DNA of 55,889 nucleotides from Pseudobacteriovorax antillogorgiicola (GTDB lineage: Bacteria > Bdellovibrionota_B > Oligoflexia > Oligoflexales > Oligoflexaceae), in the NCBI RefSeq assembly GCF_900177345.1, contig NZ_FWZT01000035.1:1-55889 (forward strand), given 5' to 3'. The first letter of the stretch is position 1, and each line of letters starts with the position of its first letter. Of the stretch, positions 26,422 through 50,937 are shown piece by piece. The notes beneath the pieces were generated by a model. That model saw nothing but the letters and a program-made list of their open reading frames with translations, was not told the DNA's origin and made no database searches. The translations under genes and the position numbers were made by a program.

Positions 26422-26442
26422 TTCACAACCACTGGTTGTGAA
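26422..26442. promoter_or_regulatory. Palindrome TTCACAACC-ACT-GGTTGTGAA
   Basis: A 9-bp perfect stem with a 3-base loop in the gap before antirepressor paralogue 2. A shorter copy of the same sequence is at 28640-28654. Candidate operator for a dimeric regulator, or an RNA hairpin. Confidence 0.55.
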
Positions 26443-26488
26443 GTTCCTAAAAAACTTTAAAAAACTTTAACTTACAGTGAGAAGAAAC

Positions 26489-27295
26489 ATGACAAGTTTA
26501 GAAAAATCATCATTTATCGAACCCAGCCCCAAGCCTGAGCTTGATGGGAAGCTTGGCCTTTATGCTAGTGAGATTGCAGCTAGCCTAGGAATTTCAAACT
26601 CAGACTTGCGAAGGAAGCTAACTAAAAGAGGGCTTCTAGATGAGCTGGAGTTGAATAATTTGACAGCCCTGACATTTGTCAGGGCTAATGATATTAATGG
26701 CTTGCCCTTCCAAGAGTATGTCTTCACTGTGGACGCGGCGAGATTTATTGTCGCTCGTTGGAACAATGCTTTGGGCAGTGCTTATCTTTCTTTTCTGGTC
26801 CGAACACATAGTCAAGTAGAAGCTTTGGAAGAGCAAGCACGGCATGATCCGGTCTCGGCACAGCTAGCAGCTATGCTTCAAATGCGAAAGCATCAGCTGG
26901 AGCAAGATGAAAAGATCAAGCAAATCCAGCTGAACACATCGGACGAGGCCATTGATGTTAAAGTCAGAGCGGCTCTCTCCAAGGAAGACGAATTTCCTAG
27001 CGACTGCATGACGATTTCCGAAATAGCTGCAACTCACTTTCCTGGGATATCGAAAGAGATCGTTCGAGGTGTATTAAGCGGTGCGCACCATCCAAAAGGT
27101 CATTTCCAGCATAAAAATGAGAAGGGTGAGACCAATATGTCTCGGCCCTATAAAAAGGCTGGGCTTGAGTTTGTGGCTAAGCGTTTTTTCGATGAGGCGA
27201 AGATTGTCGAGGAAACACCAAAAACAATTATCAGAGTTCATCCAAGGGTGGGCGGTAGGATCTTTCAGTCAAAGGCGAAAATGAGAGCTGGTTGA
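26489..27295 (+). CDS. Antirepressor-like protein, paralogue 2
   Basis: A 268-residue protein. Its N-terminal ~110 residues look like an AntA/KilA-type antirepressor domain ('GLYASEIAASLGISNSDLRR', 'EYVFTVDAARFIVARWNN'), followed by a helical linker and the C-terminal domain shared with paralogue 1 ('FPSDCMTISEIAATHFPGIS', 'VEETPKTIIRVHPRVGG'). ATG 26489 is preferred over GTG 26477, which supplies the GAGAAG ribosome site. A perfect 10-bp hairpin is embedded in the codons at 26665-26686, at the position equivalent to the hairpin of paralogue 3. Confidence 0.6.
   Translation: MTSLEKSSFIEPSPKPELDGKLGLYASEIAASLGISNSDLRRKLTKRGLLDELELNNLTALTFVRANDINGLPFQEYVFTVDAARFIVARWNNALGSAYLSFLVRTHSQVEALEEQARHDPVSAQLAAMLQMRKHQLEQDEKIKQIQLNTSDEAIDVKVRAALSKEDEFPSDCMTISEIAATHFPGISKEIVRGVLSGAHHPKGHFQHKNEKGETNMSRPYKKAGLEFVAKRFFDEAKIVEETPKTIIRVHPRVGGRIFQSKAKMRAG
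26665..26686 (+). other. Coding-sequence hairpin in paralogue 2
   Basis: AGCCCTGACA-TT-TGTCAGGGCT: a 10-bp perfect stem with a 2-base loop inside the gene, encoding ALTFVRA. It falls between the same flanking protein blocks as the hairpin at 27572-27605. Confidence 0.75.
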
Positions 27296-27393
27296 ACCGA
27301 CAAGTCTCTCAATATGGCAGCGGAAGCATTTGGTGCCCTGACTGAAAACCGACATCAACCCTAAGCAGAAATATATTAATCAAAGGAAAAGCA

Positions 27394-28263
27394 ATGGAAG
27401 CAGAAATAGTATCGGTAGATTTTGTGAATTCAAAGCCAATCAATCTTGACGACAAAGTCAACCTTAGGGACATCTATCAAACTCTAGCAGAGAAAGGTGG
27501 AATAGCGACAAGTATCGACTTCAACAAGTGGGCTCACAGGAAGCTTCAATACTATACTGAAAACATTGATTATTTCTCGTTCGACAAAAATGTCGAACGA
27601 GAAATTGGAGCCTCTTATCGAAAGGAAATTTCTACCACAGTTCAAGTTGCAATGGAGATCATTGCCAACGGCCATAAGGAAGCAGGGCATGAGATGCGCC
27701 GATTTTTGACTGAGTGTATCAAGCTATCGATGAAGGAGAGAAACGGTAGTTCACTCATCGACTCGGACTTGCTGTTAGACCTTGAGAAAGAGTTAAAAGG
27801 CCACTCTGTTCCTGTGGAAAGCATTTCAGAACTATTGTCTTGCTACAATGCCAAGAAAACCGCCGAGAAGAATCTTAAGCTTGTCCTGGCTTCACTCCCT
27901 TTGTCGCCTGTTCTAGACGGTTACATCAAACCCAGGCTATCTAAAGGATCGAGCGGATCAGGAAAGCCGATGACTATTGGTGCGATTTCGAGAATGTATT
28001 TTGAGGGCTTGCCAGAGTTTGTTGTTGGCGCCTTTCTTCGCGAGAGCAATCAACCCAAAGCCTCAGATGGCCCGAAGGCTCGGTATCTAGATCTGGATCT
28101 TGGCGAGGCAGCTAGTGTCTTCTTTGATGATGTCACCTACCTAAAGGAGCACAAGGGCAGGCACTACTACTTTAGCAGCTGGATCGGCAATTTCAGTGCT
28201 CCTATCAGAGTTAGTAGAACATGTGACCGCGATCCCGTTTGGGCTTCTGAACAAAAACGATAG
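27394..28263 (+). CDS. Antirepressor-like protein (AntA type), paralogue 3
   Basis: A 289-residue protein with an AntA/AntB-type N-terminal domain ('VNLRDIYQTLAEKGGIATSI', 'DFNKWAHRKLQYYTENIDYF', then TTVQVAMEIIANGHKEAGHEM). The C-terminal part is a divergent version of the domain in paralogues 1 and 2 (MTIGAISRMYFEGLPEFVV, and HYYFSSWIG near the end). AAAGGA precedes the ATG. Codons at 27572-27605 form a 15-bp perfect hairpin. Fragments of the same region recur at 31798-32226. Probably modulates the lysogeny repressor. Confidence 0.65.
   Translation: MEAEIVSVDFVNSKPINLDDKVNLRDIYQTLAEKGGIATSIDFNKWAHRKLQYYTENIDYFSFDKNVEREIGASYRKEISTTVQVAMEIIANGHKEAGHEMRRFLTECIKLSMKERNGSSLIDSDLLLDLEKELKGHSVPVESISELLSCYNAKKTAEKNLKLVLASLPLSPVLDGYIKPRLSKGSSGSGKPMTIGAISRMYFEGLPEFVVGAFLRESNQPKASDGPKARYLDLDLGEAASVFFDDVTYLKEHKGRHYYFSSWIGNFSAPIRVSRTCDRDPVWASEQKR
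27572..27605 (+). other. 15-bp hairpin in the AntA-like coding sequence
   Basis: Left arm ATTTCTCGTTCGACA (27572-27586), loop AAAA, right arm TGTCGAACGAGAAAT (27591-27605). The stem is perfect. It encodes FSFDKNVERE, the variable turn of the AntA-like domain. Confidence 0.85.
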
Positions 28264-28426
28264 CTTAGCGTCTACTGGAGTCCATGCCATCAGTACGGGA
28301 CAGATTGTCCTGTCCACCCGAAAAGAGCTATTAGAACATCATGTTATCCATCCAAAGTCAGTCATGACTGCGGGACAAATTGTCTCGAAGTCCCAGTAAA
28401 TAAGCTTAATAACAAAGGAAAAAGCA
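28264..28426. other. Gap with three palindromes and a 25-bp imperfect direct repeat
   Basis: GGACA-GAT-TGTCC (28298-28310), CAGTCATGACTG (28359-28370) and CGGGACA-AAT-TGTCTCG (28371-28387). The first and third lie in a repeated context (CGGGACA.ATTGTC). A frame is open across it (28196-28399) but starts inside the previous gene, so I take it as a remnant or a regulatory region. Confidence 0.5.
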
Positions 28427-28621
28427 ATGAATAGTCTGATGCAGTTTTTCACATACGATCACCTTCCAACACGATTGCAGAGAATCTCTAAACCGTTCTG
28501 CGATCTCGCCCAGGAGCTGGAAAAGTTACCTCGCAATCCTGAATCGACGGCTGCACTTCGAAAGCTTCTTGAAGCTAAAGACTGCGCGGTTCGGGCAACT
28601 CTCTTTGTAGAAACCAAATAG
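28427..28621 (+). CDS. Acb2-like anti-CBASS candidate
   Basis: A 64-residue all-helical protein. The spacing FFTYDHLP...Q...I...FCDLAQELEKLPRNPESTAALRKLLEAKD-like positions matches the small phage proteins of the Acb2/Tad1 hairpin family (F-Y-x-P...Q...R..A..LA..I....P.S.E...A...L..A....N.A.A), which bind and hide cyclic nucleotides made by CBASS defence. The tail here ends AVRATLFVETK rather than the usual WANAAIA. AAGGA precedes the ATG. It lies just before the acr/aca genes, so an anti-defence role fits. I compared from memory, not by search. Confidence 0.5.
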   Translation: MNSLMQFFTYDHLPTRLQRISKPFCDLAQELEKLPRNPESTAALRKLLEAKDCAVRATLFVETK

Positions 28622-28639
28622 GAGGCGCGTCGTCTGGTC

Positions 28640-28654
28640 ACAACCATTGGTTGT
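28640..28654. promoter_or_regulatory. Palindrome ACAACC-ATT-GGTTGT
   Basis: Second copy of the palindrome found at 26422-26442, here 19 bases after the Acb2-like gene. The shared core suggests one regulator acts at both places. Confidence 0.5.
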
Positions 28655-28712
28655 TAGCAAGCGAAAATACCCTAAAAAACAGAATGTTATATCGAGTAAG
28701 GAAAGAGAAGTA

Positions 28713-28808
28713 ATGACAATGCCACCCAAGAATTTCCCAGCCCCAAAGCTGGCTTTTAATAACAACATGGAGAAAAAATGGTTCAGAAACACGGAACAAA
28801 GGAGTTAA
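28713..28808 (+). CDS. Possible 31-residue leader peptide
   Basis: ATG after AAGGAAAGAGAAG opens a 31-codon frame that ends inside the next gene (31-base overlap). No family. It could be a translated leader coupled to the next gene, or chance. Confidence 0.25.
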   Translation: MTMPPKNFPAPKLAFNNNMEKKWFRNTEQRS

Positions 28809-29062
28809 CCGAAATGCTATCACTGGTTGCTGCGATTACAAAGTTCATCTACGAGGAGGCAAGGGGCGACGGTCTAAGCTACACCGATATCGCAAAGCTC
28901 TTGCTGGATGGTGACTTCCAAAGAAAGCTTGCCGTTGCTGTTTCGGGAATTACACTAGTAGATGATGAGATTCTTGACCTTGATGGGATCGAGGGTATCG
29001 GCTTAGCCAGATTCCTGCTCGATACTGCTGAAGACATCATTTCCACACCAATCGCAGCTTAA
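28778..29062 (+). CDS. Small acidic phage protein
   Basis: A 94-residue acidic helical protein with no family that I recognise; GGAG lies five bases before the ATG. First of a run of closely spaced genes (28778, 29079, 29225) that lead to the acr/aca locus. Candidate for an uncharacterised anti-defence protein by position only. Confidence 0.55.
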   Translation: MVQKHGTKELTEMLSLVAAITKFIYEEARGDGLSYTDIAKLLLDGDFQRKLAVAVSGITLVDDEILDLDGIEGIGLARFLLDTAEDIISTPIAA

Positions 29063-29078
29063 CCTAAGGAGCTACCAG

Positions 29079-29228
29079 ATGCTGTCACCCATTCACAAAT
29101 CCTATCGATCCAAACGTAAGTTTGCAGCACTGACACCATTTGCCTGGAAGATGTTTGGCTTTGGTCTTGCGATTGGAGTGGCAGCATCCTTAGCCCTTTT
29201 CAATGTGTTCATGGGAGAAAGTAATTGA
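29079..29228 (+). CDS. 49-residue single-pass membrane peptide
   Basis: Basic N-terminus (SYRSKRKF) followed by one membrane segment (about residues 25-45, FGFGLAIGVAASLALFNVFM). AAGGAG lies seven bases before the ATG, and its stop overlaps the TTG start of the next gene (TTGA), so translation is coupled. No family recognised. Confidence 0.6.
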   Translation: MLSPIHKSYRSKRKFAALTPFAWKMFGFGLAIGVAASLALFNVFMGESN

Positions 29229-29497
29229 ACCCAATCATCGCGGGGATCGACCCTGACGAGGAGTTTGACCTGGTGGAGCGATTCACTAGCCGCTTTGGGC
29301 TTAGCGGTTACCATCGACTCGTTCTGGAGTATCTGCTCCATGGGTATCAAGACACCGAAATCTCGAAGGCTCACGATGTCCCTCGACGTAGAGTTCGTGA
29401 GTGTATCAGGGAGGTCCGGCAGAGGGTTGGGGCAAAGAACCGGGCAAGGATCATTGAGAAGTTTCGGCGGTTTGCTTTGAATCAAGTCTGGATCTAG
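29225..29497 (+). CDS. LuxR-type (GerE-like) HTH protein
   Basis: A 90-residue stand-alone HTH: 'RLVLEYLLHGYQDTEISKAH' and 'VPRRRVRECIREVRQRVGAKNRA' follow the GerE/sigma-70 region 4 pattern. No sensor domain. Starts with TTG overlapping the previous stop. Possibly a phage transcription activator. Confidence 0.65.
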   Translation: MNPIIAGIDPDEEFDLVERFTSRFGLSGYHRLVLEYLLHGYQDTEISKAHDVPRRRVRECIREVRQRVGAKNRARIIEKFRRFALNQVWI

Positions 29498-29553
29498 CCA
29501 GACCCTTCAAACACCATAAATATACGTAGTCTCGAACTTTTCTCAGAAATGAC

Positions 29554-29582
29554 TTGCAAATGGTCGCAATTGCGACCATGAT
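29554..29582 (+). promoter_or_regulatory. acr-aca promoter with a 20-bp palindrome in its spacer
   Basis: -35 TTGCAA (29554-29559), 17-bp spacer, -10 CATGAT (29577-29582). The perfect palindrome ATGGTCGCAATTGCGACCAT occupies 29560-29579, so a bound dimer would block RNA polymerase. It is 33 bp before the candidate anti-CRISPR gene, and the second gene of the operon encodes an Aca2-like repressor, the expected ligand. Confidence 0.75.
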
Positions 29583-29612
29583 GGTCTGTAGGTTCTCAAT
29601 ACCGGAGAGAAT

Positions 29613-30089
29613 ATGGAAGTCCTTCACACATCGCCACAGGTAATCGAAGAGTTTCACAGTAAAGGCCTATTTGGTGAATTTCTATGCTTTTCACAAGATG
29701 AATATCTTATGGGCGATGTCAAAGCTGTTTACTCAGTGGAGCTTGACGACTCTGACGTTATAAGAGCAAGGTCTTTGTTCTATGTCGATGAAGCAGATAA
29801 GCTTGATGCTATCGTCAAGAAGGTCATTGATGCTTGTCCAATCGAAATAGACGAAGAAGAAGCTCAAGACCTACTCGACGAATCTTCTAGCTATTACGAT
29901 TTAATCTCAGAGAAGTCAGAATCGCAAGACTATGAAAGTACCGCCGAGTTTAGCTGGTGGTTACAACTAATGACGGCGCAGTGTGCCAAAGCATTGGGTT
30001 ATAAAGCTTGTTTAATGGAAGATGAGCAAGGCGCAGTGTATTTTGTGGACGTGACTCAGGTGCAGCCAACATTAAAAGAGCTTCGGTAG
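29613..30089 (+). CDS. AcrIF11-like candidate anti-CRISPR (ADP-ribosyltransferase type)
   Basis: A 158-residue acidic protein. The N-terminus 'VLHTSPQVIEEFHSKGLFGE', the middle 'SLFYVDEADKLDAIV' and the end 'AKALGYKACLMEDEQGAVYF' follow the order of blocks in AcrIF11 and its relatives (H-x-S...GxFG...W.LQ...A..LGY...EM.DE.G), which ADP-ribosylate Cas8f to stop type I-F surveillance complexes. GGAGAGA precedes the ATG. The next gene encodes an Aca2-like repressor, the usual partner of acr genes. The similarity is by eye; it may act on another target. Confidence 0.6.
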   Translation: MEVLHTSPQVIEEFHSKGLFGEFLCFSQDEYLMGDVKAVYSVELDDSDVIRARSLFYVDEADKLDAIVKKVIDACPIEIDEEEAQDLLDESSSYYDLISEKSESQDYESTAEFSWWLQLMTAQCAKALGYKACLMEDEQGAVYFVDVTQVQPTLKELR

Positions 30090-30124
30090 TAATCCCCCGA
30101 AATCAACTCTAATACGGAGATCCA

Positions 30125-30493
30125 GTGACTAATTTAGAACTAAAACAGATAAGAAAGTTGCTATTCCTCGAAGTTAACGAAGCTGCAGAGATAGTTGGTA
30201 AATGTGAACCTAGAACGTGGCAGCGCTGGGAGAAGGGTGATCGCAAGATACCTCTCCATGTTATTGAACACATGCAACAATTAGCTTTGATTCGCCAGGA
30301 TCTGCTCGAAGTAGAATATGAAGAAGGCGATCCTATGTATACCTACTTTGAAGACTTTTCTGAGTTTAGAAAGAAGACTAAAGCCGGTCCTCTGAAATGG
30401 AAGATTGCTCAATCGGTTTCTGCGCAGATTGCAGCTGAAGATAATGCGCTCCGCTGGAAGGAAACTGAGATAATTGAGCAAGATCAAACTTAG
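30125..30493 (+). CDS. aca2: Aca2-like anti-CRISPR-associated repressor
   Basis: A 122-residue HTH repressor. The start MTNxELxxIRKLLxL, then EAAE..G, RTWQRWEKGDRKIP and, late in the chain, LKWKIAQSVSAQIA correspond position by position to Aca2 of phage ZF40 as I remember it. Aca2 shuts off acr-aca transcription by binding palindromic operators and can also bind the mRNA. Starts with GTG after GGAG, 35 bp after the acr candidate. The operator is probably the palindrome at 29560-29579. Confidence 0.8.
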   Translation: MTNLELKQIRKLLFLEVNEAAEIVGKCEPRTWQRWEKGDRKIPLHVIEHMQQLALIRQDLLEVEYEEGDPMYTYFEDFSEFRKKTKAGPLKWKIAQSVSAQIAAEDNALRWKETEIIEQDQT

Positions 30494-30505
30494 AGAGGAT
30501 GTTCT

Positions 30506-31171
30506 ATGCCAGTACCTGGAGATACTTATTCAAGCTTAACTCTGATTAGGGAAGTTGGTTCGGTCAAACATGGTCGAAACAACGTAAAGGTATGGCTATG
30601 TCAATGCACTTGCGGAAGGCAGCTTGATGTCAATCAAGCCTCTCTAGTAAAGGGAGAGGTCCCTGCATGTAAAGTCTGCCGTCGGGGACCTTGTGTGATA
30701 TGTGGATCAGAGATCGAGAATGAATCATTCAGTGTTAAGCGAAATACGTGCTCTGAGGAATGTCGAAAAGAGCAAGCTCGACGAAAGTCTCTTAAGGCCT
30801 ATTCGAAAAAGGTATTAAAAGCTCCAGCTCACAACCGAGAGATTTACCAGAGACGCCTCGAAAATGACCCAGCTCATAACAAAGAGCGTTACGCCCGTAT
30901 GAAGGAGCGAGAAAAAGATCTCTCCCAAGAAGCAAGGGACGCTATCCGAACTAAAAGGAACCGCGATAGCAATAATTGGAGGAGATTGTGGCTAGAGGAA
31001 ATTAAAGAGAAAGACCCTAAGAAGTATCAGGAGTGGCTAAGATCGAGCCGCAAGCGCAGAAATGAGCACTATAAGAAGAAAGAGCTTCTGTCTTTTATGG
31101 CGTTGTCAGAAAAACTAAAAAGCAAAGTAAAAGGAGATCAAGATGAAAATGACGTTACGGAAAGTCGGTAA
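30506..31171 (+). CDS. Zinc-finger protein with a basic helical tail
   Basis: A 221-residue protein. Residues 1-60 resemble the N-terminal module common in phage HNH/AP2 proteins (LTLIREVG...WLCQCTCGRQ, V..ASL..G), followed by three Cys pairs (CKVC, CVIC, CSEEC) and a long, strongly basic coiled region. No HNH catalytic triad is evident. GAGAGGA precedes the ATG. Same operon as aca2. May be a nucleic-acid binding protein that helps the phage programme. Confidence 0.55.
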   Translation: MPVPGDTYSSLTLIREVGSVKHGRNNVKVWLCQCTCGRQLDVNQASLVKGEVPACKVCRRGPCVICGSEIENESFSVKRNTCSEECRKEQARRKSLKAYSKKVLKAPAHNREIYQRRLENDPAHNKERYARMKEREKDLSQEARDAIRTKRNRDSNNWRRLWLEEIKEKDPKKYQEWLRSSRKRRNEHYKKKELLSFMALSEKLKSKVKGDQDENDVTESR

Positions 31172-31778
31172 AGCTAGGCTTGCATCAATGTCTACTGATG
31201 ACCTCAAGAAGCATTTTTCTAGGGCCCTTGAGGTAACTGCTGATCATCTGAATTATTTAGCATCTATCTGGCAGGAGCTTGAGACAAGAGGCGAGGATCT
31301 TAGTGATTTAAGGTCCAGCTTATCAGTCTACATTAAAATGATTGCCCATAAGAAGATTGACGCTCATGCTGTCGTTGAATTTGCTGGACAGAAAACACTT
31401 TTGAATGCTCTATCGGGCCTGCCACTTGATCAACAAAAAAGCCTCCTCGAAACCAAAAGGGTGGATGTCCTCAATCGCGAGACCCTTACCAAGGAAAAAG
31501 TACCTTTAGCTGAGCTTTCATCTGCTGATGTTAATATGGTTTTTGGCGGCGGCAAGATTCGATCAATAGCCGAGCAGAAAAGTCTTGTAACCTCTATCGC
31601 GAAACCTGCTAAAAAAGGTCGTCGACAACCTAGAAAAATTACCAAGGTGGGAATGGACATCGAGAGGAATGTAATCGAGGTCAATGAAGGCAGGACAAGA
31701 ATAGATCTAGATGCGATTTGTAGCACTCTCAAACATAACTTGACGAGAAGCGAACTAAAGGATCGGTTAGGGATCTAG
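31143..31778 (+). CDS. Soluble protein of unknown function
   Basis: A 211-residue basic helical protein with no recognised family; AAAGGAG lies six bases before the ATG, and it overlaps the preceding gene by 29 bases. The C-terminal ~50 residues (KKGRRQPRKITK...) are basic and could bind nucleic acid. Last intact gene of the operon before the antirepressor fragments. Confidence 0.55.
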   Translation: MKMTLRKVGKARLASMSTDDLKKHFSRALEVTADHLNYLASIWQELETRGEDLSDLRSSLSVYIKMIAHKKIDAHAVVEFAGQKTLLNALSGLPLDQQKSLLETKRVDVLNRETLTKEKVPLAELSSADVNMVFGGGKIRSIAEQKSLVTSIAKPAKKGRRQPRKITKVGMDIERNVIEVNEGRTRIDLDAICSTLKHNLTRSELKDRLGI

Positions 31779-31800
31779 GGGGTAATATCGTGAGTGGATC

Positions 31801-31826
31801 CTCATTCGACAAAAAAGTCGAACGAG
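31801..31826 (+). other. Fragment hairpin A
   Basis: CTCATTCGAC-AAAAAA-GTCGAACGAG: CTC/GAG and TTCGAC/GTCGAA pair around one A-C mismatch. Homologous position to the hairpin at 27572-27605. Confidence 0.75.
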
Positions 31827-31994
31827 CAGACTCTAAGAACGCTAACAGGGGAGCTTCTTACGAGTGCTAAAAGAAACACGCGTAACAGAGACGCTTCTTA
31901 CGATTACCAAAAATGATAATTGTAAATTCTGCCAACAAGAGACTCCAAAATGTCTTCCCTAAAATTAAAGTATTGTTCTGAAAATATTGACTGT

Positions 31995-32023
31995 TTTACG
32001 ATCCACAAAAAAGTGGACGTAAA
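31995..32023 (+). other. Fragment hairpin B
   Basis: TTTACG-A-TCCAC-AAAAAA-GTGGA-CGTAAA: an 11-bp stem with one bulged A. Stem sequence quite unlike hairpin A, though the flanking protein-coding text (SENID...) is homologous. Confidence 0.72.
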
Positions 32024-32050
32024 TTATCACCGGGTTTAGGCAACATAATC

Positions 32051-32076
32051 CTCATTCCGCAAAAATGCGGAACGAG
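32051..32076 (+). other. Fragment hairpin C
   Basis: CTCATTCCGCA-AAAA-TGCGGAACGAG. Compared with hairpin A, the inner pairs changed from CGAC/GTCG to CCGC/GCGG on both arms. Confidence 0.78.
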
Positions 32077-32226
32077 CAACCTGACAGTTCAGATGGACTT
32101 GAGGATGCTGCCAAGAATTTTTTTGACGAACTAACGCTACTGAAGGAAACCCCGAAATGCTACTTCTGGCATCACCCAAAGGTCGGGACGATGCGAAAGG
32201 ATAAGAGCTTGGCTGTTGTTGGGTAG

Positions 32227-49776: not shown

Positions 49777-50937
49777 TTGATCTTAAAAAAAGCGATTGAG
49801 TCTTCTTACTGGGCTATGAGAGAGGAAGGACTATCGGCTCTTATAGCTTCAGTAAACGGAGAAGGCGATTTTAAAGCCCTAGAGAAACGTCTAGGCGAAA
49901 AACCAAAGTATACATATAAAGCAACGGTAAGAGATGGAATTGGAGTCATTCCCATTGCTGGCCCCCTATTTAAAAGGGCCAATCTTCTTACAGAGGTCTG
50001 CGGCGCCACAAGCTACGAACTGGTTCTAAGAGATCTTCACGGCTTTTTAGAAGACGATAGCATCTCGTCTATCGTTTTCAATATCGATAGCCAAGGCGGC
50101 GAAGTTAGCGGCTGCCAGGAACTTTCAGAACATATCTATAGGGCAAGGCAAAAAAAGCCCATCCTTGCCTATATCGATGGAACGGGAGCCTCGGCTGCCT
50201 ACTGGATTGCAAGTGCAGCAGATAAGATCTTTGCCTCTAAAACTGCCATCATTGGTAGCATTGGTGTCCAATCAGTTCTAAGTGCTGATCGAGCTGAGGG
50301 CGAATTCAGATTCATTAGCTCTCAGTCGCCCTTGAAGAATGTGGACCCAGCAACGGAGGAAGGACGAAGCGAAACCCAAAGACTTATTGATGACCTTGCT
50401 GGAGTCTTTATTTCAAGTGTTGCAAGGAACCGGGGCGTTACAGACGAAACCGTTTTAGCTGACTTTGGAAGAGGAGCTGTATTTATTTCAGGAAACGCAA
50501 AACATAGGGGAATGATTGATGAGATTGCAACTTTTGAGGATGTTATGAGCGAGCATAAAAAAGAAAAGGAGGCTTCCAAGCTTGGGGAAACTAGGGGTGT
50601 AAAAGCCGCTAAAGAAGCCTCTAGGTCCGAAAGTACTGATCATATTCTAGCAAGAGGTGTAGCCCAAGAAAGAGCAAGAGTTACCGAGCTGTTCAAAACC
50701 TGCAGGGCTCACGTCGATGATCAAACCCTCCTAGCCTTTATTGAGGGCGGAAAAAATGCCAAAGATGCTGCCTTTGACATCCTGGCGAGCGGGAGCATTG
50801 CCCCTAAAAGCCCAACCCCCTACAAAGAGGATGAGAGCCTTAAGGGCCTAAGCTCAGTTCCTATCGACTCTCCAAGCAGCAACGAAGATCTTGTGGCCTT
50901 GGCCCGAGCTGGTGGATGGGGGGAGAATGAGCTATAA
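49777..50937 (+). CDS. S49-family capsid protease/scaffold (lambda gpC-like)
   Basis: A 386-residue protein. The N-terminal ~260 residues form an SppA-like serine peptidase ('FNIDSQGGEVSG', catalytic Ser in GTGASAAYWIA, 'IIGSIGV'), which matures the prohead. The Lys/Glu-rich C-terminal ~110 residues look like the scaffold part. TTG 49777 with GGAG five bases upstream is preferred to TTG 49762. Overlaps the decoration gene by 11 bases. Confidence 0.88.
   Translation: MILKKAIESSYWAMREEGLSALIASVNGEGDFKALEKRLGEKPKYTYKATVRDGIGVIPIAGPLFKRANLLTEVCGATSYELVLRDLHGFLEDDSISSIVFNIDSQGGEVSGCQELSEHIYRARQKKPILAYIDGTGASAAYWIASAADKIFASKTAIIGSIGVQSVLSADRAEGEFRFISSQSPLKNVDPATEEGRSETQRLIDDLAGVFISSVARNRGVTDETVLADFGRGAVFISGNAKHRGMIDEIATFEDVMSEHKKEKEASKLGETRGVKAAKEASRSESTDHILARGVAQERARVTELFKTCRAHVDDQTLLAFIEGGKNAKDAAFDILASGSIAPKSPTPYKEDESLKGLSSVPIDSPSSNEDLVALARAGGWGENEL

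Follow-up and report, generated by a model that had tools for sequence, protein, structure and literature searches.

The question raised by this locus is why the codons of a protein-coding gene should also form a long and perfect palindrome. The window, i.e., the whole stretch of 55,889 nucleotides analyzed here, is contig 35 (NZ_FWZT01000035.1) of the Pseudobacteriovorax antillogorgiicola genome (7.28 Mb in total), and the gene in question (27394–28263, + strand, 289 amino acids) encodes an antirepressor-like protein matching PHROG 5817 (anti-repressor Ant, E = 2e-5). Its match to the Pfam family AntA (PF08346) lies under the curated cut-off (E = 0.02; 15.9 vs. 27 bits). It is homologous to PF08346-positive AntA proteins, and in alignments the R, L, W46, D59 and C-terminal R/E positions of the AntA core ARxLH...F..W...R...Y.F.E..D[YF]...G are kept; the protein is a divergent AntA relative. 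An AlphaFold2 model (predicted local distance difference test, pLDDT, 91) has a helix-helix-wing layout, with helices at residues 24–33 and 43–50 and strands at 60–68 and 73–82, the two strands forming a beta-hairpin wing encoded by codons 60–82 (27571–27639, + strand). The palindrome, ATTTCTCGTTCGACA-AAAA-TGTCGAACGAGAAAT (27572–27605), overlaps these wing codons and consists of a perfect stem of 15 base pairs (bp) around a 4-nucleotide AAAA centre. For the same protein written with synonymous codons the longest stem was expected to be 4.3 bp, and none of 200 randomizations reached 15 bp (P-value = 0.005, the lowest attainable). Analysis of homologous genes revealed that this hairpin belongs to a type of DNA palindrome that is very widespread in the genes of several families of phage DNA-binding proteins; the phenomenon is real and general.

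The first hint of generality came from an Escherichia coli phage, whose AntA gene has TTTTCGCCAA-at-TTGGCGAAAA in the corresponding position. The AntA set comprised 146 non-redundant genes from viral contigs, GTDB genomes and named phages, and spans enterobacteria, Bartonella, Bacteroidota, Firmicutes, cyanophages and others across many phyla; representatives of the homologues behind the statistics exceed the PF08346 cut-off. A wing palindrome (at least 8 of 9 pairs) was detected in 114 of the 146 genes; among windows of equal size from other parts of these genes, 28 of 1583 contained one. The longest wing stem averaged 7.7 bp, while the average was 4.5 bp when codons were redrawn synonymously from the same open reading frame (ORF), and 47 genes had P-values of 0.01 or lower against this synonymous null (minimum attainable 0.005). 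When pooled, the element consists of two 9-bp arms and an A/T-rich 6-bp spacer in the wing codons, with 90–97% pairing at most arm positions, 83% at the outermost one, and near-background pairing beyond 12–13 bp from the centre. There is a strong preference for even centres, and relative to the protein the centre falls in any of three reading frames. Because all three frames occur with a fixed geometry, the conserved unit is the DNA palindrome and not the peptide.

Arm sequences vary widely among AntA genes yet remain complementary. Covariation was found at every arm position (z from 8 to 15), and an independent count over 35 sequences gave 94% paired cells (59% after shuffling), with 110 double and 2 single changes. 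A preliminary description of the window had claimed that pairing is retained there while the amino acids change, which the large homologue set strongly confirms; the two observations that it named as contrary, a lack of covariation and homologues without palindromes, were looked for among the homologues, and the claim was not refuted.

The arm bases also follow residues that are encoded elsewhere in the gene. Outside the wing, the protein columns with the highest mutual information on arm bases were 41, 42, 44, 45 and 49 (window numbering). These residues, which lie in the turn and recognition helix encoded by codons 41–50 (27514–27543, + strand), are spaced like one face of helix 43–50 in the model of the window protein, just before the wing. 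Helix residues inform bases -7, -6, -5 and -4 together with their partners on the other arm, and hardly the neighboring bases; wing-end residues (alignment columns 151 and 152) are also related to the outer bases. At base -7, residue 44 is paired as Ala-T in 41 of 41 genes, Ser-C in 44 of 51, Asn-A in 11 of 12 and Lys/Arg-G in 5 of 7. Lys or Arg at 41 occurs with C at -4 (74/74), Gln41 with A at -5 (12/13) and Asp45 with C (35/36). Such residue-base pairs resemble familiar contact chemistry. Phylogeny was controlled with 62 disjoint nearest-relative pairs of AntA genes, among which paired changes were still evident for residue 44 and base -7 (P-value = 1.2e-8), residue 41 and base -5 (P-value = 5.7e-7), and residue 45 and base -6 (P-value = 1.2e-4), while most control columns and offsets were null and a few gave weaker secondary signals. 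In leave-one-out prediction with training restricted to genes less than 60% identical, the base was predicted correctly from the residue in 85% (-7), 87% (-5), 75% (-6) and 87% (-4) of cases; prediction from the nearest relative gave 49, 57, 42 and 81%, respectively. Paralogues in the same phage that differ at residue 44 have different palindromes, mostly as predicted (e.g., Ser with CGCC and Ala with TCCC in E. coli phages). As a separate observation, the AntA genes L294 (3911–4508), L334, L327, L311, L302 and L326 contain two wings in tandem, and the palindromes of the two wings differ; in our reading of L294, the first palindrome agrees with the helix residues that the protein now has, and the second with proteins of the Asn44 type.

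The same phenomenon, absent from the preliminary description, was detected in Rha, ORF6N and KilA-N genes. Single-protein searches found few homologues for Rha and KilA-N. The Rha palindrome is centred between conserved Asn and Phe codons and reaches 15 bp; it is present in about 39 of 47 genes, with P-values of 0.05 or lower against the synonymous null in 21 of the 47. Rha has its own code, in the segment GKRHKDVLRAIR; for base -7, its most frequent combinations include Asp-C (9), Lys-G (9), Arg-G (6) and Ser-A (6). In ORF6N, 98 of 104 non-redundant genes have an odd palindrome of 25–27 bp at a single site, base -4 of which follows one helix residue (Gln-A 51/52, Glu-G 20/20, Lys/Arg-C 23/24); the nearest-pair table has 28 and 1 in its first row and 0 and 20 in its second (P-value = 7e-13). 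The pattern also occurs in a few KilA-N genes, among them kilA of phage P1, with GAAACTATGCA-gaat-TGCATAGTTTC at about 50121–50146 of NC_005856.1. The geometry is constant within each family and differs between families, a pattern to be expected with the domain of each family as the reader of its site.

It is quite likely, judging from these sequence comparisons, that the palindrome is a DNA operator located in the wing codons of a phage antirepressor-class regulator and read by the same protein; within the AntA, Rha and ORF6N families, self-recognition is indicated by the statistics. Each of four complete phage genomes contains the site only once, with no repeat near the repressor, and a dedicated target inside its own gene is therefore the simplest reading. 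The protein would bind the palindrome as a dimer, and once bound would halt RNA polymerase within the gene as a roadblock. In this way the regulator would limit its own synthesis whichever promoter drives the gene, and gene and operator would move and diversify together as one unit. Promoter-independent autorepression by roadblock thus appears the most likely function. The suggestion of a diverging operator in the preliminary description pointed in the right direction, but missed that the recognition helix of the encoded protein, the proposed reader, predicts the palindrome.

A precedent is C.Kpn2I, the controller of the Kpn2I restriction-modification system, which binds inside its own ORF and blocks elongating RNA polymerase (PMC6237814). 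The authors of that work also predict relatives of this controller, and reason that a gene of this design does not depend on a particular promoter and lends itself to horizontal transfer (PMC6237814). The palindromes described here likewise lie within the regulator's own ORF, as candidate binding sites. However, C.Kpn2I belongs to the XRE/C-protein family, has its site at or near the ORF start and has few relatives, whereas the sites here lie within the wing codons of the DNA-binding domain, occur in at least three antirepressor families and come with a statistical recognition code. With somewhat less confidence, we favor the broader proposal that AntA, Rha, ORF6N, KilA-N and probably more families form a broad class of self-recognizing genes, each with the operator in its own wing codons, inherited, exchanged and diversified as a promoter-independent unit, and with an amino-acid-to-base code for each family.

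Several observations weigh against self-recognition. No clear wing palindrome is present in 22 of the 146 AntA genes. In favor of self-recognition, L224, which lacks the wing palindrome, contains a perfect one about 116 nucleotides upstream of the domain, and this matches the predicted core ACTA at 4 of 4 bases. In another gene (L227) the upstream palindrome fails to match its own predicted core. A promoter-proximal second site was seen in L140, L272 and L224, but was rejected as a general rule. The window protein is itself divergent, with extra residues in the turn of its helix-turn-helix (HTH), and its clade is limited to two genera; from its Asn44, A would be expected at -7, where the palindrome has C. 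A structure search of the PDB with the window model returned no useful match or similar solved structure. Self-reading of the window gene is thus proposed from homology, position and the palindrome, and not from the recognition code.

Among other explanations, the one that survives best keeps the protein as reader and assigns the binding to its own gene another purpose, such as kin exclusion or homotypic immunity of co-infecting phages, activation, looping, or marking for wing-cassette exchange. This reading is favored by tandem paralogues of one phage that carry different sites, by wings duplicated in tandem whose two palindromes differ (L294), and by a non-coding array in the window (see below); the C.Kpn2I precedent (PMC6237814), in contrast, favors autoregulation by roadblock, and such another purpose seems possible but unlikely. 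The role as a recombination site put forward for the window hairpins was unsupported. It is improbable that the palindrome is an operator for a different phage protein, e.g., the immunity repressor, that happens to be sited in the antirepressor gene. A DNA palindrome of fixed size that differs between phages would agree with this, but no second site was found in the four complete phages, repressor regions included, and the surroundings show no enrichment of the genes' own cores (4 vs. about 6 expected), which led us to reject an immunity-repressor operator; moreover, the bases follow the helix of the encoded protein, and the geometry is family-specific.

An mRNA hairpin, serving as a C4-type antisense-RNA target, translational brake or RNase site, is very improbable, even though the stems have A-rich loops and the antA genes of the E. 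coli loci L026, L027, L085 and L094 have matches to C4-clan RNA (RF01695), sRNA-Xcc1 (RF02221) and isrK immediately upstream. AntA arms contain 16 G.T and 22 A.C cells, compared with about 106 and 110 when partners were shuffled; G.U accounts for 2 of 315 cells in the 35-sequence count, and ORF6N arms have 12 G.T and 18 A.C among 1078 cells. Since G.T is as rare as A.C, whereas an RNA stem would tolerate G.U but not A.C, the constraint is on DNA and not on sense-strand RNA structure. The palindrome also tracks recognition-helix residues, and the Rfam matches fall outside the hairpin, with no match in the window. The C4 antisense RNA of P1/P7 (RF01695) does regulate ant genes, and precedes one antA gene of E. 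coli, others being accompanied by matches to the related RF02221, but it is a separate upstream element. The equal avoidance of G.T and A.C together with the Rfam result led us to reject an RNA hairpin, an antisense target and a translational brake as candidates. Hence, where the preliminary description invoked selection on DNA or RNA structure, the DNA part holds and the RNA part does not, and neither its antisense-RNA target of the P1 c4 type nor its translational brake is supported. Least credible of all is a functionless product of template switching between quasi-palindrome arms in a tolerant loop: paired arm changes (242 double vs. 26 single at 10–15% flank divergence) and the persistence of stems in non-coding window fragments would fit it, but the fixed length and spacer, the three reading frames and the dependence on helix residues encoded elsewhere would be left unexplained.

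The clade of the window gene is small: besides this gene it comprises a remnant (L002) elsewhere in the same genome and four copies from a single other genus. Initial searches that used only the window protein as query found nothing in genome contigs, viral contigs or plasmids. Several copies in the clade have the palindrome at the same codons with different stems. In the other genus (G001), the A-run of the palindrome centre is 8, 7 and 6 in L015, L018 and L017, the latter two being out of frame there. Programmed frameshifting at this run (A8, A7, A6) was rejected as a candidate; it is an observation only, and two copies look like broken genes.

The preliminary description had placed further hairpins of the window in copies of the AntA-like domain. 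Every sequence was found at its place, but only the hairpin at 27580 lies within an intact AntA-like ORF. The supposed equivalent spot in an AntA paralogue belongs to a different family: the 10-bp palindrome AGCCCTGACA-TT-TGTCAGGGCT (26665–26686) is immediately 3' of the predicted HTH of a second antirepressor-like gene (26477–27295, + strand) with a weak HTH match. In locus L013, two paralogues of this second family (contig C10, at about 229.3 and 233.7 kb) have CTTGGT-att-ACCAAG and CTCGGT-aat-ACCGAG at the same place, a pair which suggests that the 26477 family may follow the same rule.

The remaining copies, at 31805, 32002 and 32055, are all in non-coding gene fragments, and only the first two fit the AntA domain. 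The copy TTTACGATCCAC-AAAAAA-GTGGACGTAAA (31995–32023, 5-bp stem at 32002) is in an AntA-wing fragment (KYCSENIDCFTIHKKVDV), and CTCATTCGAC-AAAAAA-GTCGAACGAG (31801–31826, one mismatch, 6-bp stem at 31805) is probably in another. The third, CTCATTCCGCA-AAAA-TGCGGAACGAG (32051–32076, one mismatch, 7-bp stem at 32055), reads on in another frame (HNPHSAKMRNEQPD...) into a fragment that belongs to the C-terminal domain of 26477-family proteins; the peptide FRKNAE assigned to it is therefore not in a homologous frame. Two weaker hairpins of the same array had not been listed, and by our reading are imperfect copies: TTACGAGTG...CACGCGTAA (31858–31885), in a wing-like fragment (LTSAKRNTRNRDASYDYQK), and TTACGATTA...TAATTGTAA (31898–31925). 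The array (31779–32200) thus appears as five short wing-coding fragments, each with its own palindrome and none in an intact ORF; no ORF of at least 60 amino acids is present on the + strand at about 31779–32200. It may consist of gene debris or, alternatively, be an array of cassettes or decoys. A genome-wide palindromic repeat was ruled out, since the pattern TTCNNCAAAAANGNNGAA occurs only four times in the whole 7.28-Mb genome, three of them in the window.

Other features were observed near these genes. An operator-like palindrome (TCACAACCAYTGGTTGT) has two copies, one just upstream of the 26477 gene (26422–26442) and one after the gene at 28427–28621 (28637–28657), and GGGACARATTGTC motifs are repeated between genes at 28296–28320 and 28365–28390. 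An intergenic palindrome, ATGGTCGCAATTGCGACCAT (29560–29579), resembles the inner part of ORF6N-type sites. At 29613–30493, an Aca2/YdiL-like HTH gene (E = 2.8e-18) is located beside a gene for a 158-amino-acid PHROG 11282 protein; Aca genes are frequent companions of anti-CRISPRs.

In open-licence PubMed Central papers, no description of a palindrome or of self-recognition was found for the protein families concerned, AntA/AntB, Rha, ORF6N and KilA-N (PF08346, PF09669, PF10543 and PF04383). Nematomorpha mitochondrial genes also have inverted repeats within protein-coding sequence (PMC6649704), but these are mitochondrial and up to 284 bp long, and the abstract describes no cognate DNA-binding protein. 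The present results would provide a DNA target and a regulatory logic for several of the commonest uncharacterized families of phage regulators from sequence alone, and the amino-acid-to-base codes are directly testable. They would also explain the variability of the wing, as this segment must both encode a protein loop and serve as a DNA site, and they suggest a simple way in which a mobile gene may regulate itself behind any promoter.

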